A stretch of 64,000 bases of DNA from a bacterium HR19 (GTDB lineage Bacteria > Calescibacteriota > Calescibacteriia > Calescibacteriales > Calescibacteriaceae). Positions 780 to 39,713 of the stretch are shown here, in pieces (position 1 is the first letter of the stretch; each line of letters starts with the position of its first letter). Location: contig BEHV01000001.1 of assembly GCA_002898315.1 (NCBI GenBank), positions 1 to 64,000 of the forward strand. Reading direction: 5' to 3'. The notes beneath the pieces were generated by a model, which did not search any database, had not been told where the DNA came from, and saw nothing but the letters and a program-made list of their open reading frames with translations. Both the position numbers and the translations under genes were made by a program.

Positions 780-1066
780 ACCTTTTATTTTCAATTCCTC
801 TTCACTTTTTTGGAGAGTTTCTCTTTATCCTTGCAGAAGATATGGGGAAGCCCTTATTGTTTGAAGAATTGAGCAGAACGCTTGAATTCCGAGAGTTTCC
901 TGATAACCCGTTTATCAAAAATTAACAAGAATTGCAATATAACGAAGAAGAATCTAAAATCATATTTTCATTGGAATGCCACTATATAACCAGATATTTT
1001 GCTCTTTCAATATCGCAAAGAAGTTAAATTTGCAAAGTTACTTTGGAAGAACTCAAAACTTGATCA

Positions 1067-1114
1067 TTTGATTATATTTGATTATAGATTACAATTATAA
1101 AAGGTTTGATTGTA
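1067..1114. repeat. Three copies of TTTGATTATA-type 10-mer upstream of the methylase gene (two in exact tandem)
   Basis: TTTGATTATA at 1067-1076 and 1077-1086; TTTGATTGTA at 1105-1114; ATG at 1128. Confidence 0.6.
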
Positions 1115-1127
1115 AAAATAGGAAAAT

Positions 1128-3278
1128 ATGCCTAAATATATTGAAGAAAAATTTCCGATAGCTTTTGTTAATTCTATCTCTACACCTGAACGCATCGCTT
1201 TAAAACCGGTTTATATGATGCATCGTATTTTCGGAAGACGTATAGGTTCTGTCCTGAGAACTATTCTTCTTTCAGCTCTAAAAGACGCTGATACCGATAT
1301 TGAAAGAGAGTTCTATTCTTCGCATAGAAATAACCCAGATACAAAAGACATTACCATTCTTGACCCTATGGCAGGTGGTGGAACAACTCTTATTGAAGGT
1401 TCACGACTCTCTGCAAAAGTAATTGGTTTTGAAATCAATCCAGTTCCCTGGTTTATTACAAAGTGTGAGCTTACAATAGTTAACATAGAAGAACTTGAAA
1501 ACAAATTCAAGCATCTGGAACAGAACATAGGGAGGAAAATTAAGAATATGTATGAGACGATCTGTCCTGTTTGTTTCTCCTCCGCTGAAATTATTTATGT
1601 CTTTTGGATTAAAGTTGTGGATTGCGTAAGATGTAAAAGGAAAATTGAACTTTTTAATGATTATATCATAACCTATGATAAAAAAGGCAAGAACCATTTT
1701 ATTCTTTGTCCTATCTGCTTCAATGTCTTTCATATATTCAGGGAACCGCATAAGGAGGAAAAATGTCCGTCTTGCGGGCATTTTTTCAATCCTTTTCAAG
1801 GTAGCATAAAGAAAAACCGAATAGAGTGTCCTTCTTGCTCTGTATTATTTGAACTCGTGGATGCATTAAAAAGCAAAAATAATCCGCCAGAAATCAAACA
1901 ATTTGCTATAGATGGATGGTGTCCTAAATGTAGATCCAGGTTTATAAAGCCTCCCGATGAAAGTGATTTTGCTCTCTATGAAAAAATCAAGCAAGAATTT
2001 GAATTGAATAAGGATAAACTTTTATTTCCTCGCAATCCCATTCCTGATGGTTTTAATACAAATCAAATGAAAAAACATAACTATAAATTTTGGTATCAGA
2101 TGTTTAATGAAAGACAACTTTTATCGCTTTCACTTCTTTTATCAGAGATAATGAAAATTGAAAAAGAAGATATTCGTGAGATTATGCTTTGTGCATTTTC
2201 TGAAACATTAAGATCTAATAATCTGTTCTGCTATTACGATAGGAGATGGGCAAAGCAACTGACACCGCTTTTTGCCAGAAAGGATTTTGCTCCGGTCAAT
2301 TTCCCATTAGAGCAGAATATATGGGGCTCTAAATTCGGACGCGGAAGTTTCAAACAGGTCTTCGAACGAATTCTTAAAGCCAAAAAATATAATCTCTCAC
2401 CCTTTGAGAGGAAATATATAGGTAAAAAGATAAAGCGGATTTATCTTGATGAAAAAATCGGTAGAAGCGACTGGCAAATTTACTGCGATGACGCAAGAAA
2501 TATGGATAAGTATCTAAAAGAACGGGTTGATCTGGTTGTCACCGATCCGCCATATTTTGATAGCATCAACTATTCTGAGGTTTACGATTTCTTTTATGTT
2601 TGGTTGCGACTTGCCCTCAAAAATAAATATCCCTGGTTTGAGCCAGAAACGGGGAGGCGGGAAGGTGAGGCAATTGAAAACGAAATCCACGGAAAAAAAA
2701 GGGAAAACTATAAAAGAATACTGACTGAGATTTTTAAAAAGTCAGCTGAACTCCTAAAAGATGATGGTCTATTTATTTTCACTTTCCACGACATAGAAGA
2801 AAGTGCATGGATGGATATGTATGAGATTGTGAAACAGGCAGGGCTTTCAGTGGTAAAAATTCATTTTTATCATGGTGAGAATGTGAGCGCAGGACATTAT
2901 GGAGGACAAAAAACTGTCTTTGACGCAATATGGGTGTGTAAGAAGGATTTAGCAAGAAGTCAAAAATATAAGAATATTCAAAATCACAAAAACATTGATG
3001 AAATAATCGGTAGGGTTAGAAGTGAGGTAAATATATTGGTTGATGAGATTCTGCGCAGTAAGTTTTTTAAACTTAATGAAGAAGATTTAAAAGTTTTTGT
3101 TATGGGTAAAACAATTGAAGTAGGAAAAGATATATTAACAAAAGAAATGTTCTACAAAATTTTGACTCATCTTACGGTGGAAAATATGAATTTATTGAAC
3201 CCAAAAACACAAGGGGATTCAAGTATTAATTTAAAAAGACAATTGAGTTTATTTGTAAAGTTTGTAAAGAATAAATGA
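1128..3278 (+). CDS. Zn-ribbon-containing DNA adenine methylase (COG1743/DUF1156-like)
   Basis: DPMAGGGTTLIEGSRLSAKVIGFEINPVPW (SAM motif), VVTDPPYFDSINYSEVYDFFYVWLR (catalytic DPPY), several CPxC zinc ribbons in the insert. Confidence 0.85.
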   Translation: MPKYIEEKFPIAFVNSISTPERIALKPVYMMHRIFGRRIGSVLRTILLSALKDADTDIEREFYSSHRNNPDTKDITILDPMAGGGTTLIEGSRLSAKVIGFEINPVPWFITKCELTIVNIEELENKFKHLEQNIGRKIKNMYETICPVCFSSAEIIYVFWIKVVDCVRCKRKIELFNDYIITYDKKGKNHFILCPICFNVFHIFREPHKEEKCPSCGHFFNPFQGSIKKNRIECPSCSVLFELVDALKSKNNPPEIKQFAIDGWCPKCRSRFIKPPDESDFALYEKIKQEFELNKDKLLFPRNPIPDGFNTNQMKKHNYKFWYQMFNERQLLSLSLLLSEIMKIEKEDIREIMLCAFSETLRSNNLFCYYDRRWAKQLTPLFARKDFAPVNFPLEQNIWGSKFGRGSFKQVFERILKAKKYNLSPFERKYIGKKIKRIYLDEKIGRSDWQIYCDDARNMDKYLKERVDLVVTDPPYFDSINYSEVYDFFYVWLRLALKNKYPWFEPETGRREGEAIENEIHGKKRENYKRILTEIFKKSAELLKDDGLFIFTFHDIEESAWMDMYEIVKQAGLSVVKIHFYHGENVSAGHYGGQKTVFDAIWVCKKDLARSQKYKNIQNHKNIDEIIGRVRSEVNILVDEILRSKFFKLNEEDLKVFVMGKTIEVGKDILTKEMFYKILTHLTVENMNLLNPKTQGDSSINLKRQLSLFVKFVKNK

Positions 3279-4249
3279 AAAGTAAAAGAGAGAATGATAA
3301 GTTAGATTATCAGAAACTTCTTAATGATTATACTTGGCTGAAAGAGAAAAATAAGATTATCATAAGTCCCGACGTCGATGGTTTTTTGTGCGGACTTCTT
3401 GTGTCATATTACCTTGGCTGGGAAATTGTCGGCTTCTATGATGGCTCCAAATTACTCGTAGATAAAGATGTACAAAACTGGCGAGAATGTGTTTTCCTAG
3501 ATATGGAAATTTATCAAAAAGATGTTCGTTCGGTCGGAAATCATTTATTACTTTATAACAAGAATAAAGAACCATCAACATGGAGGATAAATTTTACTCA
3601 GTGCATCAACCCAAACAATTTGAGAAAATTTGACAGGTTACATGATTTTAAAAGGAAATATCCTTTTGGAACGATTCATTTCCTTATTTGTCTTTTAGAA
3701 AACATGGGAAAAGAAGTCAAAATTTCTAAAGATGCTATCGGTATAATCCTATATGCCGATGGTGTTTTCAAGAGCCTTATGAATTATCCTGAAAACTGTG
3801 TCGACTGGCTAAACTGGTTAAGTGCAAAGGAGTTGGAAATTTTTAAGCACTTTAGAGATGCTAAACTCTCTAACATTATCCATAGTTTGGAAGAAATATT
3901 CCGAAGTTTGAAACTACCAAAGGGTAAGTTACAATTAAAAAAAATTAGTAATAATACATCCGATATTCAAGATAAAATGAGAAACTTTTTAAGACAGCTG
4001 TCTAAATTAACCGGATGGGAAATAAATGAAGATAATTGGAAAACTCTAAATCTTGATAAACTTCAAGAGCCGATAAAAATAGAGCGGGATAGAAAAGAAG
4101 GAATCAGCTCTAAGAAATATGAAAAAGTATTAAGTAAACCTAACTTAATTTCGTTCTCTTTCCCTTCGTATGACCGTCTTGAATATAGCATTTACATTCC
4201 GGTAAAAAGGAGGTCAAGATTACCATCAAGAATATCATCAAGCCGGTAA
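3275..4249 (+). CDS. DHH/RecJ-like phosphoesterase-like protein, 3' end truncated into antisense prfA
   Basis: ATGA overlap with upstream methylase; N-terminal [30 protein letters not shown] resembles DHH motif I; later D and GNH positions; last ~19 aa read through antisense of the prfA 3' end. Confidence 0.5.
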
Positions 4250-5202
4250 ATTGTGATCCCGAGTCGGTGATCTGTGACTCTGTTCTGCATGAAGTTATAT
4301 GTTCTGACTTTTTCCGACCTTTCAGCCGAACCTATTTGCTGTTTTCTCTCCTCCAAAATCTTCCTCTCCTGTTTCTCCTTTTCAATCTGGAAAAGCTTGG
4401 CTTTAAGGAGACGGAGAGCTTTTTCTTTGTTCATATGTTGTGAGCGTTCCTCCTGACAGGTGACAACTATTCCTGTTGGAATATGCTTTATTCTGACGGC
4501 GGAATCGGTCTTATTCACATGTTGCCCCCCAGGTCCAGAAGCTCTGAATGTCTCAATTATTATATCCTGCGGAGAAATATTTACCTGAACATCTTCTGGT
4601 TCTTCAAGAACAGCAACCGTTGCAGTTGATGTGTGAATTCTTCCTGATGACTCCGTCACCGGCACCCTTTGAACTCTATGGACTCCCGCCTCGTTCTTCA
4701 TGAAATCGTACACTCCTTTTCCTTCCATTATAAAAGCCATCTCCTTTATTCCGCCGAGGTCTGATCCCCTCTCGTATATCATTTTTATTTTCCAGCCCTT
4801 TTTATCTGCAAACTTTGAGTACATCCTGAAAAGGTCTCCCGCAAACAAAGCCGCTTCTTCTCCTCCTACCCCTGCTCTTATTTCAACTATGCATGAGTTC
4901 TTTGAACTAACCTGCTCAAATTCTCCAATCAGCTTTGACAATTCTTTTTCTAAATTTTTCTTCTCCTCAACAGCAAGAGAGATAAGTTCTGGGTCTGATT
5001 CAGATTTTATAACATCTTCAACATCTTCAAGTTCTTTTATAACCTCTTTGAGTTTTTCAAGCTTTTCCAATTTTTCTTCAAGCTTCCCCCTTTTTTCAAG
5101 TAGTGATTGGTCAAATTCGGAGGAGAGTTTCAGGTCTATCTGTTCTATTTCTTTTTTGATATTTTCCAGGTTTTTTATTAGTGTTTTTGCTTTTTCAATC
5201 AT
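4192..5202 (-). CDS. prfA: Peptide chain release factor 1
   Basis: [25 protein letters not shown] (GGQ motif), [20 protein letters not shown] (PxT motif of RF1). Confidence 0.95.
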
Positions 5203-5211
5203 AAATTTTGG

Positions 5212-5285
5212 AGGCGACGCCGGGATTTGAACCCGGGAATGAGGGATTTGCAGTCCCCTGCCTTAGACCGCTTGGCTACGTCGCC
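5212..5285 (-). tRNA. tRNA-Cys(GCA)
   Basis: Cloverleaf GGCGACG..acceptor/CGTCGCC, anticodon loop CTGCAAA, T-loop TTCAAAT, discriminator U73; CCA not encoded. Confidence 0.95.
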
Positions 5286-5357
5286 AAAAAGAAAAACACT
5301 ATGAAATATATATAAAAAGTATGAGACATGGTAGAGAATTTCACAAAATTGAAAAAA

Positions 5358-6011
5358 TCATGTCAAAAATAAAGATACATATATAACTGGCCATATCAGG
5401 ACAACAAATTTCCAGAACAGCGAGGCGCTTTCAATTGCAGGAGTTGATAACGAATGCCTCCTCCTACTTATGATAAAAGCTATAATAAGCCATATCAAGC
5501 CACCAAAAGCGTGAACCGCATGAGAACCAACTATGAGATAGAAAATTGAACCATACGAACTTGATGTCATCGTAAGCCCAAACCTGACGAGCTGAACCCA
5601 CTCCCGCCCCTGAAGCAAAATGAAAACAGAACCAGATAAAATAGCAAGTGAAAGGAAAACGAAATTTCTCTTTTTATCAAAAATATAAATAAGTATTCCG
5701 CTTGCGAACAGGAAAAGGGAGTTGAAGAAGGTCTGCAACGCAGGATATGATGGTTGCCCCGGCGGAGGCCAAACCTCATACTGACCCCTCATAACAAAAA
5801 AAGTGCTTATCAAGCCCCCAAAATACATAAGTTCTGCAACGATGAAAAAAATCGTCCCTATCTTCGCTACTTTTATTCTGTCCTCTACAACCGGTTCTCC
5901 CTCACTCCTGAAACTCATCTCATAAAAATCTACTTCTTCCTCTTCAATTCCCATGTTGATTAATTTCCTTCTTTCTTCTTCGTCATCTTTTTTGTTATCT
6001 TTGACCATCAA
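5358..6011 (-). CDS. ctaE: Cytochrome c oxidase subunit III
   Basis: FIVAELMYFGGLISTFFVMRG, GSHAVHAFGGLIWLIIAF, ESASLFWKFVVLIWPVIYVSLFL signatures. Confidence 0.88.
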   Translation of the reverse strand: MMVKDNKKDDEEERRKLINMGIEEEEVDFYEMSFRSEGEPVVEDRIKVAKIGTIFFIVAELMYFGGLISTFFVMRGQYEVWPPPGQPSYPALQTFFNSLFLFASGILIYIFDKKRNFVFLSLAILSGSVFILLQGREWVQLVRFGLTMTSSSYGSIFYLIVGSHAVHAFGGLIWLIIAFIISRRRHSLSTPAIESASLFWKFVVLIWPVIYVSLFLT

Positions 6012-6168
6012 AGAAAAGTTAGTATAAAATCTGCGGATTTCCGAAAAGCAGAAAGAAAATCTTTCCTGATTTTAAAATCTTCAAAATAAATCAAAACTAT
6101 TTTTCTACTTTTGAGAAAGTTCTGAAACCAAAAATAAAGTCATAATAATAATAAGGAGGGTGAAGATT

Positions 6169-6399
6169 ATGGGAGTTCCGAAATCAAAAAGGAGCAGGAT
6201 GAGAGCGAGGAGAACGAGAGCTCATCTTACAATATCTCTGCCAAACCTTGAAAGATGCCCCAACTGCGGAAGTTATAAACTCCCCCACAGAGCTTGTCAA
6301 GAATGCGGGTATTACAGAGGAGAAAAATTTATAAAGTCAGCCCAAGAAATAAGAGAAGAAAGAGCAAAGAAAAAAGAAGAAAGAGAACAAAAAACCTGA
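6169..6399 (+). CDS. rpmF: 50S ribosomal protein L32
   Basis: MGVPKSKRSRMRARR..; CPNCG..CQECGYYRG zinc ribbon; SD AAGGAGGG. ORF track start at 6160 is a GTG inside the SD region; ATG at 6169 preferred. Confidence 0.95.
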   Translation: MGVPKSKRSRMRARRTRAHLTISLPNLERCPNCGSYKLPHRACQECGYYRGEKFIKSAQEIREERAKKKEEREQKT

Positions 6400-6991
6400 A
6401 CTCAAATAATGCGGTACTTCAGCATACTCAAATAATTCATTAGAAGTTTTGTTAGTTAAAGATTCTAACGCTTTTTTATATACTTTTGAGAAATCGGTTT
6501 TTCTCGTTCTTATTATATTGAGCAACTTTATCTTCTCATTTTTTAAGTCAATTTTCCTTTTTTGAACTTAAGAATTATGGTTTCTGGATTTTCATTGTTA
6601 AATAATCGTGCTTCGTCTAAATCTATAATCACTTCTATTTTCCCAAATTTTATCAACATTTCCCGAACAAGTTTTGCATAAGTGTTATAGAAAAAATGAT
6701 ACGGAACAATATAGATAAGCTCCCCTCCTTCTTTAAGCAATAAAATTGACCTAATAATGAATGCATAATATATATCTCCTTCACTTGTTTTTATTATTCT
6801 TTTTACAATGTTTGCAATTTCAGGAGGTAGTTGATTGAAATGAACATATGGTGGATTACCAATAATTAAATCAAATTTCTGTTGAAAGAATATGTTAAAA
6901 AATCCCCCAGTATTATTTTAAAATCTTTCCCATACTTGCTTTCACAATATTCATAGAGATTTTTTTCTATTTCAATGCCATATATTTTGCC
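6400..6991 (-). pseudogene. Remnant of an N6-adenine DNA methyltransferase (type IIG/Eco57I-like)
   Basis: Reverse frames read KIYGIEIEKNLYEYCESKYGKDFKIILGDFL / FDLIIGNPPYVHFNQLPPEIANIVKRIIKTSEGDIYYAFIIRSILLLKEGGELIYIVPYHFFYNTYAK... / IDLKNEKIKLLNIIRTRKTDFSKVYKKALESL in different frames; NPPY motif; at least two frameshifts; N terminus missing; C terminus runs into antisense rpmF. Confidence 0.8.
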
Positions 6992-7118
6992 TCATCTTTG
7001 AGACATTTTTAAGATACATAAGAAAATCAAGGGTTCCATTGTTTCATTTTTGAGACAACTTCGGAAAAAAATGACTTTTGCTTATTTTTATCTATGAGAT
7101 ACTACTTTTTTATCTCTG

Positions 7119-7192
7119 GGCTCTTTTTCCCCGCTTCTTGTGTAGGTCGCCAGATATTTTTCATGGAGTTTGTGCTTTCTCACAAAAGAGCC
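7119..7192 (+). ncRNA. Possible structured 5' leader: 9-bp perfect stem GGCTCTTTT/AAAAGAGCC closing a 56-nt loop
   Basis: Inverted repeat 7119-7127 / 7184-7192, about 60 bp upstream of the Cyc2-like ORF. Confidence 0.3.
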
Positions 7193-7254
7193 GAGCTGTG
7201 GTCATAGAAGGCTGGCACAAATTTTGCTATATATAAAATAGAGGTAAAAGGATT

Positions 7255-8465
7255 ATGATAGGTCAGAAATCAAAAAAGAAACAACACTGGTTTATTTTAT
7301 TGGCTTTGCCGATATCTTTTTCTAATTTTTTTATTCCCGAAGAAAGTGAGGCGGTTCCTGCGTTTGCAAGACAGACGGGCTATACATGTACAACATGCCA
7401 CACAGCATATCCTTCTCTTAATAAGTTTGGGAGAAGGTTCAGAGAACTCGGTTACAGATTAACAGAAGCCCAGGACCCGAAAGGTCCGTGGGATATGAAA
7501 TTCTTACCGTTTGCAATTCAGGCAAACACAGGAGCAATAGGTGAAATAGGAGAAGCAGAACACACAAAAATTTCCATAGATGCACTTCAGTTTTTTGCAG
7601 GAGGTCCCGTTGCAAAAAAACCAGTATTTACATACATCATCACTTTATAATGGGAGATAAGCCAGGTCCCATTTATGAAGCTCAAATTGTGTTTTACAAA
7701 CCTTCTGACCTGCCGTTTTCTATAAGATTAGGGAAGTTTGAACCATGGTATGCAAAATCGCCGGGTAAAACACAAACACATTTTGGCTACTCACCCCTTT
7801 CTTTAACATCAGGAGCAAATGATTCAACACTTGCTAACTCAAAGCCAGGGATAGGAACAATATGGTATATCTCACAATCTCTTCTTGCTTTCGTTGATAT
7901 TTACTACCTTGAAGGAGGACCTGAAGGATTTATAAGATTGGTTGCTAAAACCCTTGATGGCGAGGTGGGAGTTTTTGTAAATAGTGGTTCTCGGAGATTT
8001 GATAGATTTCAGCAATTTGAAGATTTTCGCGACAACTATATAAGACCGGGGATAGATTTTGCTATTTTTCCTGTAAACTTTTTAGAGGTAAGCGGATTTG
8101 CTGCATTTGCACTCCATACAAATCCCACAGGTGAAGGAGAAAGAAAAGGGTATATTTCCTCATACCTTGAAACCGAGATTTTCCCTTTTCAGCTTTTTGC
8201 AGTAGTGTTAAGAGGGGAGCTACTGAGGCCACTTGAATTTCGCCATGAGGAAGGGACAACTGAAACAGCACATCAAGGAACGTCCCTTTTCCCGAAACAT
8301 GTTGAGGGGGGAGAATCCGCAGAAGGAGCAGAGACCACAATATGGGGTGTAATATCACTTCAGCATTACATAAGACAGAACGCAAAAATTCTCGCAGAAT
8401 TCAAAGCAAACTTTAATGAATTAGAAAAAAGTGTATTTTTTGTAGGAACGCATTTTGCTTTCTGA
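7255..8465 (+). CDS. Cyc2-like fused outer-membrane cytochrome-porin, interrupted by an apparent frameshift near 7630-7650 (ORFs 7255-7650 and 7650-8465)
   Basis: Signal peptide, AFARQTGYTCTTCHTAYPSLNKFGRRFRELGYRL (single CxxCH near N terminus), then beta-barrel-like region ending ...VFFVGTHFAF*; frames join as ...VFTYIHHHFIMGDKPGPIYEAQIVFY. Confidence 0.7.
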
Positions 8466-8506
8466 ATATGCCTATTTCTATTATACCTGTTTTCGCCACC
8501 GCTTTG

Positions 8507-9358
8507 CTAAACCGCCAGCGGGTCTGATTTTCTTCTCATAAGCAGGAATACAGAAGTGAAAAAAGCGATGGGAGAGATTACAGCAAGAGATAAAAATTCG
8601 TCTGGCTTAAGCGTATCTCTCATGAGCTTCATCAAGCCAAGAGAAAAAGCAGGACACATAAGTCCGACTTTGAGAAATCCAGCGAAGAAAAAAGGTACGC
8701 ATGACAGAGATGAGAAAGCTAAAGACAGATTGTAAATTGCCTCATTTTTTCCTTTTTTACCTTCTTCGGTGATAAGGTCAACAAAATCTTTACCAAATCT
8801 GCTATCTCCTTTATCAACAAAAATTTCAATTTTTCTGAATTTTAAGGTTTTCTCACCATCAAACAAAAAACCATCTTCTGCAACTATCTTTCCTGTATCG
8901 GTTTCTATGTCTCTTGCTACAAAAAGATTTCCCCTCTCCACTCAAAGATGTATTTCCCAATTCCTTCATAATACTTTTTCGGAATAAGATTTTCACTTTC
9001 TAACTTCATACGAATGAAAGCGCGGGGTGAGACATAAAAGAAAGACAAAAGCGAAACAGAAAAAACCAGAAGAGAAATAAGAAAAGAAAACCTCAAAACA
9101 ACCCGCCTTGCTCTTCCAAAAACTTCAAGAAACCTTGATTTTCTGAAGTAATTTTCAAGGTAGAAAAAAAGAGAACGAAAAAGCAAAAACAAAAAGATAC
9201 GGAAAAACAAAAAGAGAAAAAGGCAAAATAAGTGAAAAATTAAAAACACCATACCCCACAGGAAACCTCAAAGATGAAAAAACAAAAGAACATATATAAA
9301 AAAATGAGAAGAAAAAAACAAAGTTTTGCAGAAAACCGGATAAGAAGTATCTCTTCAA
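8507..9358 (-). pseudogene. LptF/LptG (YjgP/YjgQ)-like permease broken into three frames
   Basis: Pieces 9358-9155 (MKRYFLSGFLQNFVFFFSF..), 9252-8917 (..YLENYFRKSRFLEVFGRARRVVLRFSFLISLLVF..YYEGIGKYIFEWRG) and 8941-8507 (..GNLFVARDIETDTGKIVAEDGFLFDGEKTLKFRKIEIFVD..) are collinear. Confidence 0.5.
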
Positions 9359-9411
9359 GGAATTTTTATTAAAAACAGATTTATCAAAAACAGAAAAGTA
9401 AAAAGTTGAGG

Positions 9412-10257
9412 TTAGCCGTCTATCAAAGTGTTTGATCTTGTTTCCGCACTTTTTATGTCCTGCTCTCTTTGCAATTTAGTTTCGGCATGTTCTGATGGGA
9501 AATGTGATGGTACAAATGGAAGCTTAATTATAATTTTGATTACCTGAAAGAGAAGTTGAAAAGCAAATGGTATTTTTCTCGGGGAAAGAAGGAATCTGAC
9601 AAAAACTTCACTCAGTCCCACCTTCAAGATAGAAAGAAAATCATCGGGTGTCATAGTCATAGTGTAAATCCAGACAACGGGCGGGAGGGTTTTTCCATGG
9701 AGAACTATTACATCACCTTTATCTTCTGGTTTTTCTGTTCCGCACGGTATAACGAGATGACTTCTTATGCCAAGCCCCTTAGACCAGAATATCATACCAC
9801 CTTGGTAGAGTTTCCGTTCGGATTCCTCCGCATCGGCGCTCTGCCCGGAATTTTCTTTCTCAGAACTTTCTTCATGATTTATTGTACCGGTTTTTTCTCT
9901 CACTTTCAGTATAAGTTCATCTTCTTGTTTTTTCTCTCTTTTTCTGAAGAGCTTCCATATCACGACTTTTGGTGTTATTATGAGGAAGACCTTGAGCAGG
10001 TTTGACACAAGAAAAGAAATAAGGCGAAAGCGAAGATTCCTTTTGAGGAATGACAAAATGGTTTTATCATCTGCCATAAAACGGGTGAATTTTACCATAT
10101 CATAAGGGAAAAGGAAAATTTTATATGGCCAGTTCACTTTTTTCTCAACAATTCTACCTTTTATAAGAACATACTCGTCAAAATCATCTACCTGCTCCGC
10201 TTCATCAAGATAAAAAGGTAAGATGAGTTTTCCAAGACCTTTTGACCAGAGCCTCAT
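9412..10257 (-). CDS. Uncharacterised protein with internally duplicated ~95-aa WSKGLG domain
   Basis: Two copies: RLWSKGLGKLILPFYL..DDFDEYVLIKGRIV and IFWSKGLGIRSHLVIP..DKGDVIVLHGKTL, each followed by a hydrophobic helix region; SD AGGAGGTG. Confidence 0.8.
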   Translation of the reverse strand: MRLWSKGLGKLILPFYLDEAEQVDDFDEYVLIKGRIVEKKVNWPYKIFLFPYDMVKFTRFMADDKTILSFLKRNLRFRLISFLVSNLLKVFLIITPKVVIWKLFRKREKKQEDELILKVREKTGTINHEESSEKENSGQSADAEESERKLYQGGMIFWSKGLGIRSHLVIPCGTEKPEDKGDVIVLHGKTLPPVVWIYTMTMTPDDFLSILKVGLSEVFVRFLLSPRKIPFAFQLLFQVIKIIIKLPFVPSHFPSEHAETKLQREQDIKSAETRSNTLIDG

Positions 10258-10310
10258 GGCAAAACACCTCCTTTTTTGGAAAAAATGCTAACTTCCAAAT
10301 GCTCCACTCA

Positions 10311-11933
10311 TCATAAATACCCCCTTTGCTTTGCTTCTTTTATAGAAGGTATTTCCTCCCATTTCCATTCTCCGCCGAGATCTTCACAAACAACTTTTGC
10401 AACATTGTAACCAGGTCCCAAAATCACCATACCGCCGGGGTGAGTAGATGCTCCACCCAAATAAAATCCCTCAATCGGAGTTCTGTAAGAGGAACATTCG
10501 GGAGATGGTCTGTTGTACCCCATCTGAAGCGATGTATATGCCCCATGCTTTATTGAGCCCCTTTTCATAGTCAGGGTATGATTTTCTATATCAAGCGGAG
10601 ACCAGCTTATTTCAACAATGACGGTGGATTCGGCTATATCTGGTGAGTATTCAGCCCAGAATTCAAAGCATTTTTTCGCCACCTCTTTTTTCACCTCGTG
10701 CAACCAGATTTTCGTTCCATTTTCTTTGATTTCATACGGAGCCCTCATCTCCCACCTCAAAAGGTGATGCTCTCCATAAGGAACATGTGAAGGAACAAGA
10801 AGGGGGTCAAACACAGAAAGGCAGGAACCGTGCCCTTTTATTTCAATTTTACCCTCGGTGCAATTTTTTATGTGTTCAAGGACATCTTCCTCTGATTCAT
10901 ATCCCATAACAACATTCAAAAATTCAGATATATCCTCACCATACTTTGGATACATGGGTTTTTTACCTATTATTCCTCTGTGGCTTATGAAAAGAGATAA
11001 TCTTTCCCACTCCCATCTTTCCGCAACATCTTTGAGTTCCTCTCCAATCTCTCCCCCGAGGTCTCCGAGTAGTTCTTTGAAGTTCTGTTCAGGGTTCAGA
11101 GTACTTATTATAGCTTTTGCTCTGAGCTGAGTTCCATCTTCAAGCTCAACACCAACCGCCTTTCCATCTTCAAGAATTACTTTTTTGACATAAGCTGTTG
11201 TTATGACATGCCCTCCCGAGAATTCAACAACTCTTCGCAAAGATGAAGCAAGATGATGGGTTCCTCCTTTCACAAGCGCTGAATTGAGAACGCGAAGAAC
11301 ATATATTGGAACGAGAAACCCTATAATCTCATCTGGTTCAAGTCCGAACATTGTTGTTATGTAAAGCAGAGCTGCTCTGACGTGCGGGTCCTGAAAATCA
11401 TAGGAATTAAGGACTTCAAGAGGTGTCATCTCAGATATTTCAGCTATTTTCTTTCCGAGTTCATCTGATTTTTGGAGTTTTTCTGTCTGTTCTACTGGGT
11501 CAAGTGGGGGGAGATATGTTGCTGGGAGGAGGAATTTATCAAACATTTCTTTGAATTCAGCCCACATTTTTTTGAATTTCTCTGCATCTTTTTCAGAGAA
11601 CTGAGATATTGATTCTGCAGATTTTTGGGGGTCGGAATATAACATGAGCGTCTTTCCGTTTTTGAAGAGGAAAGCCATTTGTTTTTCAGGTCTTATAAAT
11701 TTCACTCCCCATTTTTCAAGTTCAAGGTCTTTGTAAGGTGGCATAAGCTCGCCAAGAAGCATATATGTTGCGTGGTGATTGAGTTTGAATCCGCATATTT
11801 CTTGAGTTACCATTCCACCGCCTGTTTCGGGTAGTCGTTCAAGCACGGCAACGCGGAAGCCCGCCTTCTGAAGATACGCCGCCGCCGTAAGTCCGTTCGG
11901 TCCCGCCCCTATAACCAAAACATCATATTCCAT
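10311..11933 (-). CDS. FAD-dependent oxidoreductase, phytoene dehydrogenase/PYROXD2-like (COG1233)
   Basis: VLVIGAGPNGLTAAAYLQKAGFRVAVLERLPETGG; C-terminal GASTHPGGMVILGPGYNVAKVV. Confidence 0.88.
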   Translation of the reverse strand: MEYDVLVIGAGPNGLTAAAYLQKAGFRVAVLERLPETGGGMVTQEICGFKLNHHATYMLLGELMPPYKDLELEKWGVKFIRPEKQMAFLFKNGKTLMLYSDPQKSAESISQFSEKDAEKFKKMWAEFKEMFDKFLLPATYLPPLDPVEQTEKLQKSDELGKKIAEISEMTPLEVLNSYDFQDPHVRAALLYITTMFGLEPDEIIGFLVPIYVLRVLNSALVKGGTHHLASSLRRVVEFSGGHVITTAYVKKVILEDGKAVGVELEDGTQLRAKAIISTLNPEQNFKELLGDLGGEIGEELKDVAERWEWERLSLFISHRGIIGKKPMYPKYGEDISEFLNVVMGYESEEDVLEHIKNCTEGKIEIKGHGSCLSVFDPLLVPSHVPYGEHHLLRWEMRAPYEIKENGTKIWLHEVKKEVAKKCFEFWAEYSPDIAESTVIVEISWSPLDIENHTLTMKRGSIKHGAYTSLQMGYNRPSPECSSYRTPIEGFYLGGASTHPGGMVILGPGYNVAKVVCEDLGGEWKWEEIPSIKEAKQRGYL

Positions 11934-12000
11934 CTTTTACACCTCCTTTCCCTTTGTTTTTTCACTTCTTTTTACTTACTTTTTCCTTCCATTTTAATTT

Positions 12001-12020
12001 TATCTACCTTCTGGTAGATA
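12001..12020. promoter_or_regulatory. Palindrome TATCTACC-TTCT-GGTAGATA (candidate operator or hairpin)
   Basis: Perfect 8-bp arms, 4-nt spacer, between two FAD-oxidoreductase genes; core CTACC-N4-GGTAG is also at 47526-47543. Confidence 0.6.
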
Positions 12021-12050
12021 GTTTAAAATTAAAAAATTTTGCTTTTGTTT

Positions 12051-13694
12051 TCAAACTTTTTTGAGTTCCGGCAGTTTTTTCAGGAAATACTCATAAGGTT
12101 TCCATCTCCACCATTCCTGCTTTTGTTTTATTCCGAGGTCTTGAGCAACGCACAAAGCAGCAACGTATCCGCTCCCAAGATGAGTCAAAGAAGCAGGCCA
12201 TATACCGTTTGAGAAATAAAGCCCCTGTATTTTTGAGCGTGGAGGAATTCTTCCTGTATACCACTGCGGACCCGAGACATCTCCCCCGAGTTCATGCCCG
12301 TATATAGCAGATGGGTTTCTCCGCCAGTTATCTATTGGTGTAAAATACATGCTATCTACAAGCGCCTCTTTGAAACCATCTACTAACCTTGAGAGGAGTT
12401 CTATGTGCCCTTTGTGGATTTCATCTGTGAAAGACCTATCGTCCCACCTTTTCTTACCTCCGTATCTTCTTAAGTTTATGGGATATTCCATTTCAAAAAC
12501 AAGGACATGGTAGCCGAGTTTGCTTCTTGCAGGGTCAACAGCAGAAAGGTTATACATTTCTGCGATGTCACCTATGACATCAAAAAGTTCTTCATTCTTC
12601 ATTTTCTGGACAGAAATTTTCGCATGCTCCCACGAATCGTAAGCTCTGAGAGGGAAGGGAACTTTCGAGATATCAGGATTCCACAACTCTGATTTCCATT
12701 TTATTCTCCCCTTCACAAGAAAGTAAGATGTAAATGCACAGTGACCTGTCATATCCCAATCTTTCATTTTTCTGAAAAGTTCGGGGTCCTCACGGCGAAG
12801 CATATCTTTATCTAATATTTCAAAAGATACAGGTGGACTTGTGTGCATAACAACTATGTCTGACTCAAACTCTTTTTCGGGATATGGAGTGTTCTCATCA
12901 AGGAAAACTCTGAAACCACCTCCTTCTTTTTTCTCAACTTTTCTCACCCCCGCGTTAAGAAGCAGGGTTCCCCCGTGATACTTGAAGCATCTTACAAGAG
13001 AATGAGGTAATGTATGCATACCACCACGCGGAACGCCGATCATTATTGTGAAAGCAAGTGCGAGCATAACAGCACCCTCTCCCTTTTCGGCAGGGTCTCC
13101 GAACACAGCTATATCAGCTGCTCCGAAAGATGCGGTCTTGAGCCATTCGTTTTCATAAAGGAGGTCAAGCATCTCTAACGCGTTCATTGTTCTGAAATCA
13201 GAAGGAGAAAATCCAAAGTATTTTGAAAGGTTCCAGAGGAAATCTTCTTTTTCTTCTTCTGCTGGGGAGAAAACAGCTGTCTCAAGAATCTCAGGAATAT
13301 CGGGAGATATGCGAGATGATATTTCCAGAAATGTTTTTGCGTCTTTTTCTGAGAATTTCGCTATTGCTTGCGCTGCTTTTTGAGGTATAGCATACCACAC
13401 AAGATTTTTATCTTCCCATACAGTTCCTGCGGGTGCTGTTGCGAAAATAAGGTCAAAACCGAATTTGTCAAGTTCAAGGTCTCCCCAAACAGGGCTCATC
13501 GGGAGGAAGCAAACCCCGGCATGTGTATCAACAGGAATTCCTCCGCCGAATATATCTTCTGTGAGTGCAAAGGGAGCTATTTCATTTCTTTTTTCAAGGA
13601 CAAGTGTTTTGAGACCGCTTTTTTGCAGATAACAAGCTGCTGTTATTCCGTTTATGCCTGCTCCAACCACAATCACATCAAATTTTTTACCCAT
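12051..13694 (-). CDS. FAD-dependent oxidoreductase, phytoene dehydrogenase/PYROXD2-like (paralogue of neighbour)
   Basis: DVIVVGAGINGITAACYLQKSGLKTLVLEKRNEIAPFA; SLTHLGSGYVAALCVAQDLG near C terminus. Confidence 0.88.
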   Translation of the reverse strand: MGKKFDVIVVGAGINGITAACYLQKSGLKTLVLEKRNEIAPFALTEDIFGGGIPVDTHAGVCFLPMSPVWGDLELDKFGFDLIFATAPAGTVWEDKNLVWYAIPQKAAQAIAKFSEKDAKTFLEISSRISPDIPEILETAVFSPAEEEKEDFLWNLSKYFGFSPSDFRTMNALEMLDLLYENEWLKTASFGAADIAVFGDPAEKGEGAVMLALAFTIMIGVPRGGMHTLPHSLVRCFKYHGGTLLLNAGVRKVEKKEGGGFRVFLDENTPYPEKEFESDIVVMHTSPPVSFEILDKDMLRREDPELFRKMKDWDMTGHCAFTSYFLVKGRIKWKSELWNPDISKVPFPLRAYDSWEHAKISVQKMKNEELFDVIGDIAEMYNLSAVDPARSKLGYHVLVFEMEYPINLRRYGGKKRWDDRSFTDEIHKGHIELLSRLVDGFKEALVDSMYFTPIDNWRRNPSAIYGHELGGDVSGPQWYTGRIPPRSKIQGLYFSNGIWPASLTHLGSGYVAALCVAQDLGIKQKQEWWRWKPYEYFLKKLPELKKV

Positions 13695-14039
13695 TTTTTC
13701 CTACACCTCCTTCTCTTTTTTATTTTTGACCTCAACACTTTCAATCATAATATAAAGTATAAATTTAAACTTTACACTTTTGTTATTTTTTGAAAATTTT
13801 TTCATTTATTTATTTTTTCAGAAAAGAACGAATTATGTAAATAACTTGGAATCAAAAAAACTAAAAGAGAATGCGGATTTTCAAAATACAAATTAAGCAA
13901 TCGCCTAAATTAATTAACTGTTGCGCTTGCAAAGGATAAAAACTTTTGCTTTGAGGTAAATTACCGCTTACATTTTTTCTAAAAGATAAAAAAATATCAC
14001 AAAACCTCTTGATCTAACTTATTAACTAAATTCTAAAAT

Positions 14040-27126: not shown

Positions 27127-27221
27127 AAATATACCACCTTTGAAAAAATTTCTTTACATCATAATAACTGATGATAAAGTGAAAAATTTTTCAGAAAAAT
27201 TTTGAAATCAGGAAATTCAAA

Positions 27222-28613: not shown

Positions 28614-28690
28614 ATTTTAAAGAAAATTTTGTTCAAACGAAAATATAAAAGAATTCAACAGTCAATTTTCAAAAATCTAATCTTATTCTT

Positions 28691-29440: not shown

Positions 29441-29472
29441 AAAAAATGCCAGAGCTACTCCAAAATCACCAA

Positions 29473-30156: not shown

Positions 30157-30159
30157 ACA

Positions 30160-30708: not shown

Positions 30709-30775
30709 CTCAATCTTTCCCGAATATAGTAACCTTGTATTTCGCTCAAACCGGCTTTCTAAAACAGAACAAAAA

Positions 30776-31408: not shown

Positions 31409-31424
31409 CCCCTCAAATCTCGCT

Positions 31425-31916: not shown

Positions 31917-32088
31917 TCTGATCTCATTTTGAAGTTCAAGGAAGTTTTTCTGAAACCCGATTTATCTGATTTATCTGAAAAAACATTTTAAAAAATTTTT
32001 CTGAATTTTAAAATAGAAAAACAGCGAGAAAATAAAATGAAGAAGATAAGCCGAAATCTTTGATATTAATTTAGGGAGGTGAAAAAGC

Positions 32089-32847: not shown

Positions 32848-32862
32848 AAGGAGGATGAAAAA

Positions 32863-33831: not shown

Positions 33832-34844
33832 AAAAGTATGTAATAGAAGGGTTTGAGCACTCTCCCGGAAAAAACTGCGGTTCTACCTCTTTATGGAACC
33901 TCGCAAAGTTCTACGGAAACAATATTGAAGAACATAATATATTCGGACTTGCCTCAGGTCTCCTTTTTTTCTACATGAAAAACGGATTCGGAGGTGCTGA
34001 ATATTCAATCGGTGGAAGAAACCCTTTACTCATAAAAGATTTCTTTGAAAACACCGGAATAAATAAAGAATGGGAAACCTATAACTACTTCCCCAAAGAC
34101 AAAATAAAAAAATATATTGACGAAAAAGTGCCAGTTTTAGCAAGAACAGACCTCTACTACCTCCCTTATTATCCTAAACCAGTCCATTTCCCGGGACATG
34201 AACTTGTTATATTCGGATACGAAGAAACAAAAGATGGAACAACCTTCATTGTCTCAGATAGCTCTTTTCACGAACCTCAAAAGGTATCAGAAAAAGATTT
34301 AGCCAATGCTATGGACCCACCAGAGAAAGTAATCGCATTTTTTGAGCTTGAAAATCACATAATGCCAGTAGAAGAATTTTATGTGAAGTTTGATCGAGAA
34401 AGCATAATAAAATCTATAAGCAAAGTTGTTTTCAGAATGCTGAAAGTAGGACAGGATTTTATGGGGTTAAAAGCCATGAGAAAATTCGCAGATACTATTG
34501 AACTGTGGGTTGAATCCAAAAACACAAGCTGGACTCTAAGATTTGCCTATCAGGTTATAGAGAGAAGAGGAACTGGAGGAGGTTCTTTCAGATTTATGTA
34601 CTCAGATTTTCTCAAAGATTCGTCTAAAATCATAGGAGGGAAAGAAGGAGAAATTTTGAAAGAAGCGGGAGAGATTATTTTCAAATCTGCGGAAAAGTGG
34701 AGACAACTTGCGTTAATACTAAAAGAACTATCAGAAAAACCGAAAGTAGAAAAAGAAGATATGCAGATACCAAAAAAATTGGCAAGCGAAATTTACCTCC
34801 TTGAAAAAGAGTCCTTTGAAAAAATTGAGCATATTCTCGGATAA
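33828..34844 (+). CDS. BtrH_N/DUF4872-like protein, translationally coupled to etfA
   Basis: HSPGKNCGSTSLWNLAKFYG..FGLASGLLFFY; ATGA overlap with etfA. Confidence 0.7.
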   Translation: MKKYVIEGFEHSPGKNCGSTSLWNLAKFYGNNIEEHNIFGLASGLLFFYMKNGFGGAEYSIGGRNPLLIKDFFENTGINKEWETYNYFPKDKIKKYIDEKVPVLARTDLYYLPYYPKPVHFPGHELVIFGYEETKDGTTFIVSDSSFHEPQKVSEKDLANAMDPPEKVIAFFELENHIMPVEEFYVKFDRESIIKSISKVVFRMLKVGQDFMGLKAMRKFADTIELWVESKNTSWTLRFAYQVIERRGTGGGSFRFMYSDFLKDSSKIIGGKEGEILKEAGEIIFKSAEKWRQLALILKELSEKPKVEKEDMQIPKKLASEIYLLEKESFEKIEHILG

Positions 34845-34942
34845 GTTCAGAAAAATCCCCTAAGATATTGCTCAAATGCACAACTACAATTAATTGATTG
34901 CAAAAAGTAAAGCGAAGTTATCAAATGATAATCCTTTAATTT

Positions 34943-36814
34943 ATGGCAGAAGGTTCAGAAGTCAAAAGAGCAAACAAATCGTATGAGAGTATAAGCTTGC
35001 AAGAAGTCATTAAAAAGGTCATAAGCTCTCCTCTATCCACTCACAGCAAAGATATAGGATGCGGTCAGGTATCAGAAGAACTCATAGGGAAAAAAATAAA
35101 GTTAGCAGGATGGGTAGAAAGTATAAGAGATCACGGCGGAGTGAAATTTTTAGACCTCGTAGATATGAGTGGTAAGGTGCAGGTGGTCATCAGACCTTCT
35201 AACATTCCCTCTGAAAAGCTCCCAGAACTTGATGAAATAGGAGATTTTTGGGTGTTGAAAATTGAAGGAAAAGTTGAAAGAAGACCAGAAGGAACAGAGA
35301 ACCCAAACATAAGCACAGGAAAAGTTGAAATCATAGCTCATAACTTTGATATCTTATCTAAATCAGAGCAACCGCCTTTCTCTCCAAAAGATAAAAAAGA
35401 AATATCTGAGGAGATTCGGCTCAAATATAGGTATATAGACCTCAGGAGAGAGAAAATGAGAAGAAACATTCTTTTGAGACATCTTGTATCTCGCAAGATA
35501 AGAGAGTTTCTCTGGAGCAAAAGTTTCGTTGAGATTGAAACTCCTTTCTTGACAAAGAGCACTCCTGAAGGAGCAAGAGATTTCCTCGTCCCCTCCCGAA
35601 TATACAAAGGAAAATTTTACGCACTCCCTCAATCTCCTCAGCTTTTCAAGCAAATACTTCAAGTAGCGGGATTTGAAAGATACTTCCAGATAGTAAGGTG
35701 TTTCAGAGATGAAGACCTTCGGGCAGATAGACAACCAGAATTCACACAAGTAGATATAGAAATGTCTTTCGTATCAGAAGAAGATATAATGAGAACTGTT
35801 GAAGAACTAATACGATTTGTCTTTAAAGAATCAATAGATGTTGAACTTCAAATCCCATTCCCCCGCATCACATACAAAGAATCAATTGAAAAATACGGTA
35901 CAGATAAACCCGATATATCTATACCCTTCCATATCCAAGACCTTACCAAAATTTTTTCTCAAAGCAAGCTTGATTTCATAAGAAGAGTTATAGAAAACGA
36001 AGGAAAAGTTCTCGGCTTTGGTGTAAAAGATATTGAGATTTCAAAGTCAAAACTTGTTTCATTAGAGAGAGAAGCAAAAAGCATGGGAGTAGGAGGGCTT
36101 ATGTGGTTCGTCATCAAGAACAGTCAGGTCTCCGCAAGCCCAGTTATGAAATTTCTCTCGGAAGAAGAAAAAAAATCAATATCAGATATATGTGAGAAAA
36201 ATGGTGTTGTCTTCGCAGTAGCAGAAAAAGAAGAAAAGGCTCGTTCAACAATATCAAGAGTAATGAAAATAATCTCAAAAGAGTTCGGATTTTATAAAAA
36301 AGGATTCAACTTCGTATGGGTCGTAGATTTTCCTCTCTTTTCGTATGATGAGACAGAGAAAAGATTTGTTTCAGAACATCACCCATTCACATCACCCAAA
36401 GAAGAAGATATTGCAATTCTTGAATCAGATCCGCTCAAAGTAAGAGCGAGAGCTTATGATATTGTACTTAACGGAGAAGAAGTGGGCGGAGGATCAATAA
36501 GAATTCACAGACCGGAGCTTCAAAGAAAAATTTTCAGAATCCTTAACCTATCTGATGAAGAAGTTGAAGAAAGGTTCGGTTGGTTCATAAACGCTTTAAG
36601 ATACGGCGCACCTCCCCACGGTGGTATAGCTTTAGGGCTTGACCGTCTTGTGGCTCTGATGGCAGAAGAAGAAAGCATAAGAGAAGTTATCCCCTTCCCA
36701 AAAAGCCAAAGTGGTATATGTCATATCACCGGCGCTCCCTCAGAGGTCTACCTAAAACAACTTGATGAACTCGGAATAATGATAAAAACCGAAGAAAAGG
36801 AAAATAATAAGTAG
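34943..36814 (+). CDS. aspS: Aspartyl-tRNA synthetase (~45-aa N-terminal extension)
   Basis: GWVESIRDHGGVKFLDLVDMSGKVQVV; FVEIETPFLTKSTPEGARDFLVPSR; RDEDLRADRQPEFTQVDIEMSF; GGIALGLDRLVALM. Confidence 0.95.
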   Translation: MAEGSEVKRANKSYESISLQEVIKKVISSPLSTHSKDIGCGQVSEELIGKKIKLAGWVESIRDHGGVKFLDLVDMSGKVQVVIRPSNIPSEKLPELDEIGDFWVLKIEGKVERRPEGTENPNISTGKVEIIAHNFDILSKSEQPPFSPKDKKEISEEIRLKYRYIDLRREKMRRNILLRHLVSRKIREFLWSKSFVEIETPFLTKSTPEGARDFLVPSRIYKGKFYALPQSPQLFKQILQVAGFERYFQIVRCFRDEDLRADRQPEFTQVDIEMSFVSEEDIMRTVEELIRFVFKESIDVELQIPFPRITYKESIEKYGTDKPDISIPFHIQDLTKIFSQSKLDFIRRVIENEGKVLGFGVKDIEISKSKLVSLEREAKSMGVGGLMWFVIKNSQVSASPVMKFLSEEEKKSISDICEKNGVVFAVAEKEEKARSTISRVMKIISKEFGFYKKGFNFVWVVDFPLFSYDETEKRFVSEHHPFTSPKEEDIAILESDPLKVRARAYDIVLNGEEVGGGSIRIHRPELQRKIFRILNLSDEEVEERFGWFINALRYGAPPHGGIALGLDRLVALMAEEESIREVIPFPKSQSGICHITGAPSEVYLKQLDELGIMIKTEEKENNK

Positions 36815-37509
36815 CAAAAAAAGTTCTTATCGGTAAAAATCTTTGATATTTCGTCGGAGGAGATGTAACCTTCTACTTCGCCATTTAAAAGCCCATAATT
36901 TGTCCCGAAGGAGTAATTGACTTTTGCGTAGTCAATCAAAACCTTTGGCGTCGTAAGTATGTAGATATCTCTGTAAATTCCGCCGTAATTTCGCCACGCC
37001 CACACCTGCGGTCGCAATGGTATAGTGGACTTTGAGTTAAGTTCATTGCTTATACGGATTTCAAGCACATTTTCTCCGATGTTCAACATTCTATCAGGAA
37101 TTCTTACCACAAACGAAGTATAACCACCGATATGCCTTGTGAGAAATTGACCATTGATGAAGATTTGACATTCATAATTTATGCCATAGGCAACAAGAAA
37201 TAAAGTTTTATCCCGGACAATTGAATCAGGAAGTTCAAAATTTTTTCTGAAAATAACTTTACCATTAAAATCATAAGCGGATGGGATTAAAACTTCCGAC
37301 CACTTTTTCTCTCCCTCAATTTTCGCAAGCCACTTTCCGGCAAGATCAATTTTTAATCTTGTGTTCGTGTCTTGAAACATCCCGGCGTCAATCCCAACTA
37401 AAGTCGGCTGACCATTGACGAGAAATTTTCTTTCATACGTTTGAAGTGCGTTTAACTCCAAAACCGAAACCAGCAGGGTTAAAATCAAAGCAAAGGTTTT
37501 TCTTGGCAT
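36748..37509 (-). pseudogene. Truncated glycoside hydrolase family 2 N-terminal (sugar-binding) domain, no catalytic barrel
   Basis: LAGKWLAKIEGEKKWSEVLIPSAYDFNGKVIFRKNFELP..GINYECQIFINGQFLTRHIGGYTSFVVRIPDRML..RPQVWAWRNYGGIYRDIYILTTP; ORF then reads into antisense aspS and stops. Confidence 0.75.
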
Positions 37510-37572
37510 ATTTTGTGGATGTTTATTGCTAAATACAATGCACAATTTCAAATTTAATAAAAATGGGGGAAA

Positions 37573-38144
37573 TTATTTGATTGGTCTTATATCCAAACCC
37601 GCTCTTATCAATGCTTCTACTGGATGAGTTCCGAGAAACACCTCTCCAAACATTGCGATAGCAAGCTGACTTCCAATTCTGTTTTCTGGAACATTTATAT
37701 TTAAACCTATATTTCTTAATTCTTTAAAAACTCTATTTATTTCTTCCTGCTTCTCCTCTGGTCGTCGTGTGAAATTAATATCTTCTTGCTCCAAAATCCA
37801 TTTCATCGCATAGAGAATATATTCTGCAGGATAACCAGGTAATTGAAGATTTCTCAAATCTTCAAGGACTTCTCTAACATCTTCACCACTCCATACTCTA
37901 ATTATTGATTGAAATAACTTTTCTGTCTTCTGGTAGTCATTACACAATTTACCATAAAAATCAATTAGAAAATGAGCATGTTTGGGAGTCATTGAGCGAC
38001 CTGTTTCGGGAAAGATAACTTTAACCTTAAAGTCATTTTCAGATTTTGAGTTTTCAGTTTTTATCAAAATCCAGCCATTAGATAAGGGAATAACCTCTTT
38101 ATAGTTTTACCTCTCCACTTTTTACCAGGTATTACTTCTTTCAT
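37573..38144 (-). CDS. Methyltransferase-linked small protein of unknown function, apparent frameshift near 38100
   Basis: ATG at 38144 overlaps the methyltransferase TGA (ATGA); MKEVIPGKKWRGKTI then a frame change to KEVIPLSNGWILIKTENSKSENDFKVKVIFPETGRSMTPKHAHFLIDFYGK.. Confidence 0.6.
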
Positions 38145-39658
38145 CTCTTGACCTCGTAAATTAGTAAGTATTGATGAATAATTGAAAGGAAATCTCGGTC
38201 GTTTTCAGGATAACCTGAAACATCTGGAACAGCAATCACAATTTCCTTAATTTTTAAGGATTTTTCTGAAAGTGTATCAATAACTCTTTTAGCTATTGGC
38301 TCTATATACCTCCCCACTCTGACATCTCTAACCTGCACCACCAAATACCCACCATCTTTTACAAACGGTAATTTCTGATAAACGAGTTTCCTTAACTCAT
38401 CTAAAAACTTCTCTACCATATCTTTAGAAACATGAACTCCCGATAAAAACGACGATTTGATAATGAGAAGGTCTAACTTCTCATATTCTTCTATTTCCTC
38501 GCCTGAAAATTTGTTTTGATTGATTGAAAAATCTAAAACAAGATAACTCCCCTTACAATATCTCAATAGAACATTAGAATTTAATATTTTATCAAAATCA
38601 TCAGAGGGTAATATCCACACGCTCGTTGTTTCAAACTTTTCAGGTAGTTCAGGTGTCAATTTCAATTCTTTCGGGATAATTTTAAAGTTATTCTGTATCG
38701 TTTGTTTTTCATTTTCTTTTTCTTTCTTTAATGGTTTTTCAAAAATTGCCAAGTATTCATGAGCTAAAAGTAAAAAATTTTGTTTTATGCTCTTTTCATA
38801 CCAAAAACCCGTTGTTTTACAGTTATGTTGTCTTTTTATAACAAGTTCATAAAGTTCAAAACCTTCTCTCAAATAAACATCTATAAGCTTAAATCCAAGA
38901 GGAACAATATATTTTTCCCTTCTAATATCTCCTATCAAAATAGCACATTTTTTCCCGGGTTTTAAAACTCTAAAACTCTCCTTTGCAACCTTCTGCATTT
39001 CAGAAAGGTAATCTTCAACATCAAGAAAAGATAAGTCCCCTTCCTTACCATCTGTATAATGAATTATATTTGCATACGGAGGATGAGAGCAGATAAGGTC
39101 AACAGAGTTATCTTTTAAGAATGATAAGTCCCTTGCATCTCCCACAATAAGTTCTGGCTCATAAACTTCAAAATCAGGAAAAAGCGAAGGAGGAATATTG
39201 AAATTTAAATTCTCCTTTGCCAATTCAATTGCTTTATCGTTTATATCAATAGCTATACATCTTCTACCTAAAAGTTTGCATTCAATTGCGGTCGTTCCAG
39301 CACCACAAAAATAATCAAGGACAAGGTCTCCCCGAGATGAGTATTTCAAAATCACATTTCTGGGTATATATGGAGACCAATTCCCTCTATAATCACCACT
39401 ATGCGTTGCCCAATTTCCTCTATTTTTAAAGCTCCATACACTCGTTTTTTCCTCTTGAAAATTTTCAGGTTCAAATCTTCTGATTCTCTTTTTTTTGTTT
39501 AATCTGCTTATATTGACACCTTTTTCTTTTGTTATCAATCTTTCAATATATTTGAATGAGACATTATATTTTTTGCCGATCTCTTCGTCGCTCAAACCTC
39601 TTTCTTTATCTCTCAAAATATCTTTTTCTCTTTCTTTATTGATGAGTTCTCTTTCCAT
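38141..39658 (-). CDS. Site-specific DNA methyltransferase (N4/N6 amino-methylating), catalytic half plus degenerate duplicate half
   Basis: LVLDYFCGAGTTAIECKLLGRRCIAIDIN (SAM motif), LICSHPPYANII (PPY); N-terminal helix-turn-helix-like segment LSDEEIGKKYNVSFKYIERLI. Confidence 0.88.
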   Translation of the reverse strand: MERELINKEREKDILRDKERGLSDEEIGKKYNVSFKYIERLITKEKGVNISRLNKKKRIRRFEPENFQEEKTSVWSFKNRGNWATHSGDYRGNWSPYIPRNVILKYSSRGDLVLDYFCGAGTTAIECKLLGRRCIAIDINDKAIELAKENLNFNIPPSLFPDFEVYEPELIVGDARDLSFLKDNSVDLICSHPPYANIIHYTDGKEGDLSFLDVEDYLSEMQKVAKESFRVLKPGKKCAILIGDIRREKYIVPLGFKLIDVYLREGFELYELVIKRQHNCKTTGFWYEKSIKQNFLLLAHEYLAIFEKPLKKEKENEKQTIQNNFKIIPKELKLTPELPEKFETTSVWILPSDDFDKILNSNVLLRYCKGSYLVLDFSINQNKFSGEEIEEYEKLDLLIIKSSFLSGVHVSKDMVEKFLDELRKLVYQKLPFVKDGGYLVVQVRDVRVGRYIEPIAKRVIDTLSEKSLKIKEIVIAVPDVSGYPENDRDFLSIIHQYLLIYEVKR

Positions 39659-39713
39659 ATCTCCGTATTCAAAATTTCAAATGCGGTGCAATATATAAAT
39701 CAAATGAAAACGC

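Follow-up and report, generated by a model that had tools for sequence, protein, structure and literature searches.

DNA methyltransferases of the DUF1156/N6_N4 type (PF01555, NF042963, and phrog_10183) have relatives on plasmids, where the neighbouring genes encode DUF499 or nuclease proteins. In Thermotogales, chromosome rearrangement is reportedly linked to multiple CRISPR loci. Linear DNA can be captured by illegitimate or homology-facilitated recombination during natural transformation. The insertion of mobile R-M systems has been documented together with inversions, translocations, and illegitimate joins at 1–3 bp (PMC3031569). Analysed here are the 64 kb at the start of contig C1 (hereafter the window) in a 1.88-Mb MAG, G000 (22 contigs, 82% complete). 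At the first of three sites in the window, a 716-aa methyltransferase matches the DUF1156/N6_N4 models over much of its length, but its score against NF042963 is 115 bits versus a cut-off of 1000 bits, and its partner belongs to an undescribed family instead of the DUF499 or nuclease types. As in mobile R-M systems, lineage-specific methyltransferase genes lie at synteny breaks and the joins show very short or no identity; unlike those systems, the sites show neither an IS nor a long target duplication (the flanking segments are single-copy, and 62 bp were replaced at site 3), and the recent site-3 piece does not come from an R-M system. This piece resembles DNA captured by natural transformation in part only, being a short cross-phylum gene fragment with 83% DNA identity to Kryptonia and no accompanying element.

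The whole of G000 was compared with G001 and G002, which belong to its genus, and with G003 and G004 from its family; the five genomes are 82–86% complete. G002 is a close sister species of G000, with 93% amino acid identity in prfA and ~83–91% identity in most long DNA blocks, and nearly all of G000 was aligned with 577 kb of G002. An earlier note on this DNA had described the sites at prfA, rpmF, and aspS as three independent methyltransferase-linked insertions, each cut off against the 3' end of a core gene. The three junctions exist, with the ORFs and antisense overlaps where they had been placed, and they represent three separate events; these events are, however, of three different kinds, namely a gene module, a rearrangement breakpoint, and a glycoside hydrolase (GH2) fragment (Table 1).

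Table 1. Features at the three sites of the window (G000) and CRISPR array sites of the sister genome (G002)
Feature	Position	Strand	Remarks
gene114	114..779	+	Left core flank of site 1; ends block conserved in G002:C66 (92% aa)
Noncoding left part of site-1 insert	780..1127		No other genome copy; missing from the 577 kb of G002 compared
716-aa N6/N4 DNA methyltransferase	1128..3278	+	PF01555; phrog_10183; GC 34%
324-aa methyltransferase-linked protein (site-1 edge ORF)	3275..4249	+	DHH-like by motif only; GC 32.5%; overlaps prfA by 58 bp
prfA	4192..5202	-	C-terminal tail ends FTGM; tail longer in G001, G003, and G004
rpmF	6160..6399	+	G002 similarity stops at 6392; last codons changed
Site-2 remnant ORF	6337..6525		Overlaps rpmF by 63 bp
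Eco57I-type N6-methylase pseudogene	6393..6990	-	Three frames, both ends missing, GC 27%
Remaining G000 interval, rpmF to next G002-shared block	6991..13973		Shared block starts at 13974
aspS	34943..36814	+	Intact; end common to G002
Site-3 GH2 ORF	36748..37551		Overlaps aspS by 67 bp
G000-specific 758-bp piece	36819..37576	-	5' part (~240 of ~865 codons) of Kryptonia-type GH2 gene
164-aa small gene	37573..38067	-	Predates G000/G002 split; last three codons and stop lost versus G002
505-aa DNA methyltransferase	38141..39658	-	Predates G000/G002 split; frameshifted in G002
M23 peptidase gene	39714..40619	-	Right core flank of site 3
G002 array sites	C10:53739-53962, C10:61513-61740, C11:14883-15110, C11:19977-20274		
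G002 array sites, further	C26, C29, C39, C41, C66, C70		

Junctions at aspS, rpmF, and prfA

At site 3, the window is collinear with G002 leftwards from aspS and rightwards from the M23 peptidase gene. The methyltransferase and the small gene occupy the same place in G002 (85.6 and 75% DNA identity, respectively), where both are frameshifted and pseudogenised. This shared position indicates that the methyltransferase module entered before the two species split, and its recent insertion is thereby ruled out. Site 3 is thus not one insertion, as first thought; only the GH2 piece is recent, and the search for empty sites in relatives, which had been suggested as a check, revealed a near-empty site for this piece (758 bp in G000 versus 62 bp in G002) but none for the methyltransferase. 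Pfam supports the GH2 assignment (PF02837, with the first ~240 residues encoded). In a scan of the genomes of 84,980 species, all four GH2 matches were to Kryptonia, the best being an 865-codon gene of Candidatus Chrysopegis kryptomonas (81% amino acid identity, and 83% DNA identity over 637 bp). Absence from near relatives, a best match in a distant phylum, and a clean site in the sister together mark the piece as an inter-phylum transfer. Kryptonia are described as geothermal-spring bacteria (PMC4737851), and a habitat shared with G000 is plausible. The Kryptonia homology reaches position 36819 and abuts the last G002-shared base on the aspS side (36818), and the upstream ~120 bp of the piece cannot be aligned with the C. 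kryptomonas genome. The methyltransferase module, being older, was already in place between aspS and the M23 peptidase gene when the 0.76-kb piece was joined just past the aspS stop codon, replacing ~60 bp; this piece may have arrived as a short stretch of linear DNA.

Sites 1 and 2 bound a single 2.2-kb conserved block (prfA-coxIII-rpmF), and synteny with G002 is lost on both sides of it. In G002, a 2.25-kb segment encoding a cytochrome P460 and a chemotaxis protein separates rpmF from the block at C3:123743 of G000, and the counterpart of window position 13974 is joined to C3:123655. These two points are only 88 bp apart in G000. The difference at site 2 is therefore a two-break rearrangement, of which the rpmF-13974 adjacency is one side, and not the simple insertion proposed originally. 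The joined methylase pieces match PF07669 (Pfam, E=1.3e-20), which confirms the methylase as Eco57I-type; they form a decaying remnant at the rearrangement endpoint and may or may not have had a role in it. In G003 and G004, rpmF has yet other neighbours. The 6.7-kb segment at 7255–13973 of the window has no DNA-level match at this place in G002 and includes two FAD oxidoreductase genes, distant relatives of which adjoin aspS in G003.

At site 1, the insert (780–4203) lies between prfA and gene114, and the block that ends in gene114 goes on in contig C19 of G000. The two genes of the insert overlap by 4 bp. In the four relatives, the methyltransferase has no ortholog and only distant matches, and the 324-aa protein has no match. 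The sequence of the 324-aa gene is native to ~4203, and its final ~15 codons are prfA antisense. Homologs in unrelated genomes are 324, 327, and 321 aa long and can be aligned along their length; the closer ones stop ~9–10 residues past a conserved EYT motif, whereas the G000 protein keeps six residues after EYT before the prfA antisense begins. The gene has therefore lost only ~3–5 residues and its stop codon, and its near full-length alignment rules out the truncated fragment that had been assumed.

The lengths of the three antisense overlaps match those of chance run-on into core-gene antisense (expected median 42 bp, mean 69 bp), and overlaps of at least 50 bp are uncommon in conserved convergent gene pairs (5/74). 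The antisense tails may thus represent chance read-through once a gene's own stop had been lost beside a convergent gene. As stated in the earlier note, neither a recognisable element nor a target duplication is associated with the sites. No transposase was found among their annotated ORFs, and no IS-like second copies of 780–1127, 6393–7255, or 36815–37577 exist in the whole G000 genome; no repeats were found at the junctions checked (700–1200 and 6380–7300). With insert ends lacking repeated copies, a common element at all three sites is ruled out, and neither the further copies nor, in the two regions checked, the terminal repeats expected of an IS or transposon were seen. There is no support for a viral origin of the genes at sites 1 and 3, since there are essentially no relatives in IMG/VR (two distant methyltransferase matches only).

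Placement of junctions in the genome and origin of the joins

A genome-wide check of the predicted enrichment at core-gene 3' ends went partly against the earlier note. A hand-curated list, resting on the 577 kb of G002 and on ORF-based gene calls, contained 20 events with usable context (indels of at least ~300 bp and synteny breaks, sites 1–3 included), located in convergent (7/20), tandem (10/20), and divergent (3/20) spacers. The G000 genome contains 337 convergent (13.8 kb), 1032 tandem (63.6 kb), and 322 divergent spacers (35.3 kb). The excess in convergent spacers (P=0.085 by count and 0.007 by length) is in the proposed direction but modest, and selection against broken promoters would produce it; the bias of event sides towards 3' ends was not significant (24/40, P=0.13). 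Across G001, G003, and G004, the neighbourhoods of prfA, rpmF, and aspS are nearly all unconserved, even inside the genus (L035-L042), and gene order at these genes differs in nearly every family genome examined. These data point to unusually fast gene-order change in the family and indicate that core-gene 3' ends are ordinary breakpoints here.

Methyltransferase genes were also found elsewhere, and some inserts are more than cut fragments. An apparently complete methyltransferase + HNH pair is present at C3:92594-94409 of G000, and the same spacer in G002 (C9:66560-67250) contains a fragment of another methyltransferase; a further fragment lies in a lineage-specific segment of G002 (C41:132706-133708). 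A further insert, C12:54021-54805, contains an ORF that resembles an IS1-type transposase by eye.

On balance, we favour the explanation that non-shared DNA was joined, without a recognisable element, to dispensable 3' tails of core genes in a fast-reordering genome. It is supported by the near-empty GH2 site and its Kryptonia donor, by prfA and rpmF tails that differ in each genome compared, by low GC in both the site-1 module and the remnant at site 2, by the absence of site-1 orthologs and of a repeated element, by the chance-like run-ons, and by the convergent excess. It is weakened by the weak 3'-end bias, by the many insertions that sit in tandem spacers with intact genes, and by the lack of a common history among the three sites. 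The absence of Ku also weighs against it: a search in which the positive control was detected found Ku, one of the agents suggested earlier, in none (0/5) of the family genomes, which are 82–86% complete, so that capture by NHEJ is not indicated in these five genomes. The same applies to the microhomology anticipated at the junctions; a run of T at the site-3 join might conceal up to 3 nt, and nothing beyond this was demonstrable. Joining may have followed an illegitimate route, perhaps after DNA uptake, with retention by tolerance, and selection would keep those joins that spare promoters and the functional parts of core genes. Of the three sites, site 3 agrees best with illegitimate joining that a gene end can tolerate. 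For the GH2 piece, whose donor phylum and near-empty site were identified, there is good support for the non-homologous joining of foreign DNA put forward in the earlier note; at site 1 such joining is plausible, and at site 2, the end of a two-break rearrangement, it is unproven.

The main rival, which is well precedented, is that R-M genes act as selfish mobile units whose DNA breakage drives rearrangements, the location at gene ends being incidental. Methylases edge two of the three sites and occur in the three further segments mentioned above. Against this rival, the recent site-3 piece derives from a glycoside hydrolase gene and not from an R-M system, the gene at site 2 is defunct, target duplications were not observed, and endonuclease activity is not known for the partners. 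We regard this rival as possible but rather unlikely. Tolerance at gene tails can explain such junctions with no need of a dedicated mechanism. Most of this is known biology, with a few junctions unusually well resolved; they provide base-level views, before and after, of cross-phylum DNA and defence genes placed beside essential genes without a mobile element. Two loose ends stand out in interest: the family of proteins linked to methyltransferases, and the CRISPR arrays found at the junction where its G000 member lies.

The methyltransferase-linked protein and CRISPR arrays at prfA

A DNA methyltransferase gene adjoins the partner-family gene at 5/5 loci (G000, G144, G393, G499, and G332), corresponding to about four independent cases, as G144 and G393 belong to the same genus; the partner is split in G499. 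Because the methyltransferase is its neighbour in all five genomes with a copy, a functional two-gene module at site 1 is likely. The partner represents an uncharacterised family and is the side finding of most interest. Its motifs DxDG, GHH, and TDGTF resemble those of DHH phosphoesterases by eye only. None of the five members has a Pfam match, and comparison with RecJ of G000 itself (hhalign) gave a 22-column match at 0.4% probability; the profile similarity that, together with motifs, would place the site-1 partner in the DHH phosphoesterase superfamily was thus not found. Its predicted structure has a pLDDT of 43, obtained from a 3-row alignment. Of the components of a type II R-M system, the methyltransferase is present at site 1, and the linked partner matches no nuclease family.

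In G002, prfA runs straight into a CRISPR array, the first repeat of which (GTTTAAATTCC...) supplies the prfA stop codon, and the gene114 ortholog also adjoins an array and its leader, at a contig end. With both flanks on arrays, the prfA/gene114 interval contains CRISPR material in G002 and the methyltransferase pair in G000. A near-complete two-gene module therefore lies in G000 where its sister has array and leader, one presumably having replaced the other in a direction and order that we can only infer. We consider it doubtful that defence modules are exchanged for one another in this interval, the slot being occupied by either a CRISPR mini-array with leader or a methyltransferase with a partner acting as a restriction enzyme, of a nuclease type new to restriction systems. 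Should the partner turn out to be a nuclease, restriction biology would gain a new type of enzyme. A degenerate CRISPR repeat at 780–1127 of the window was also considered and rejected, as the G002 repeat had no match there at up to 3 mismatches; a short look-alike, which has the wrong orientation, was discounted.

Approximately ten small array sites are dispersed in G002 (Table 1); they have a single repeat in common, and their leaders are nearly identical. Two of the leader copies carry the first codons of a SpoU gene. In G000, the sites corresponding to C10:53739 and C41:72950 are almost empty, so that the arrays of G002 appear to have been copied together with the leader. They are not always at gene 3' ends, their orientations being mixed. 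Contig C11 of G002 passes from leader into a SpoU-family gene, the counterpart of which is located elsewhere in G000 (C1:131976), beside one of its own arrays; this join could reflect array–array recombination or assembly misjoining. As in Thermotogales, dispersed same-repeat arrays lie at synteny breaks in G002; the SpoU codons in its leaders and the prfA stop codon supplied by a repeat set G002 apart, and misassembly is possible. Recombining arrays, present with their leaders at several loci, might have shuffled their neighbours, including the prfA flank, and in G002 arrays are found joined to prfA, to gene114, and to the SpoU segment alike. However, none of the three window sites contains an array, the pattern could equally arise from short-read misjoining at repeats, and sites 2 and 3 would be left unexplained, which makes this account improbable. 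An assembly artefact, with the foreign pieces introduced by the assembler itself, is highly improbable: G000 is an incomplete MAG, contig C1 begins 114 bp ahead of the gene flanking site 1, and its end (C1:1-441) overlaps C19 at 98.6% over 441 bp beside this site, a sign of strain mixture or variation in G000, but the GH2 piece lies inside a 262-kb contig, between flanks that are each collinear with G002, and an artefact would require two misjoins separated by 758 bp; site 1 is also contig-internal with conserved genes on both sides.

Cas1 was not found in the incomplete MAGs G000 (82% complete) and G003 and was found in G002, G001, and G004. G000 nevertheless retains arrays, at C1:131613-131839 and C10:16444-16801, whose repeat has diverged (GTTTAAATTCCACTTTGGTGCATTGCAAC, with a variant).
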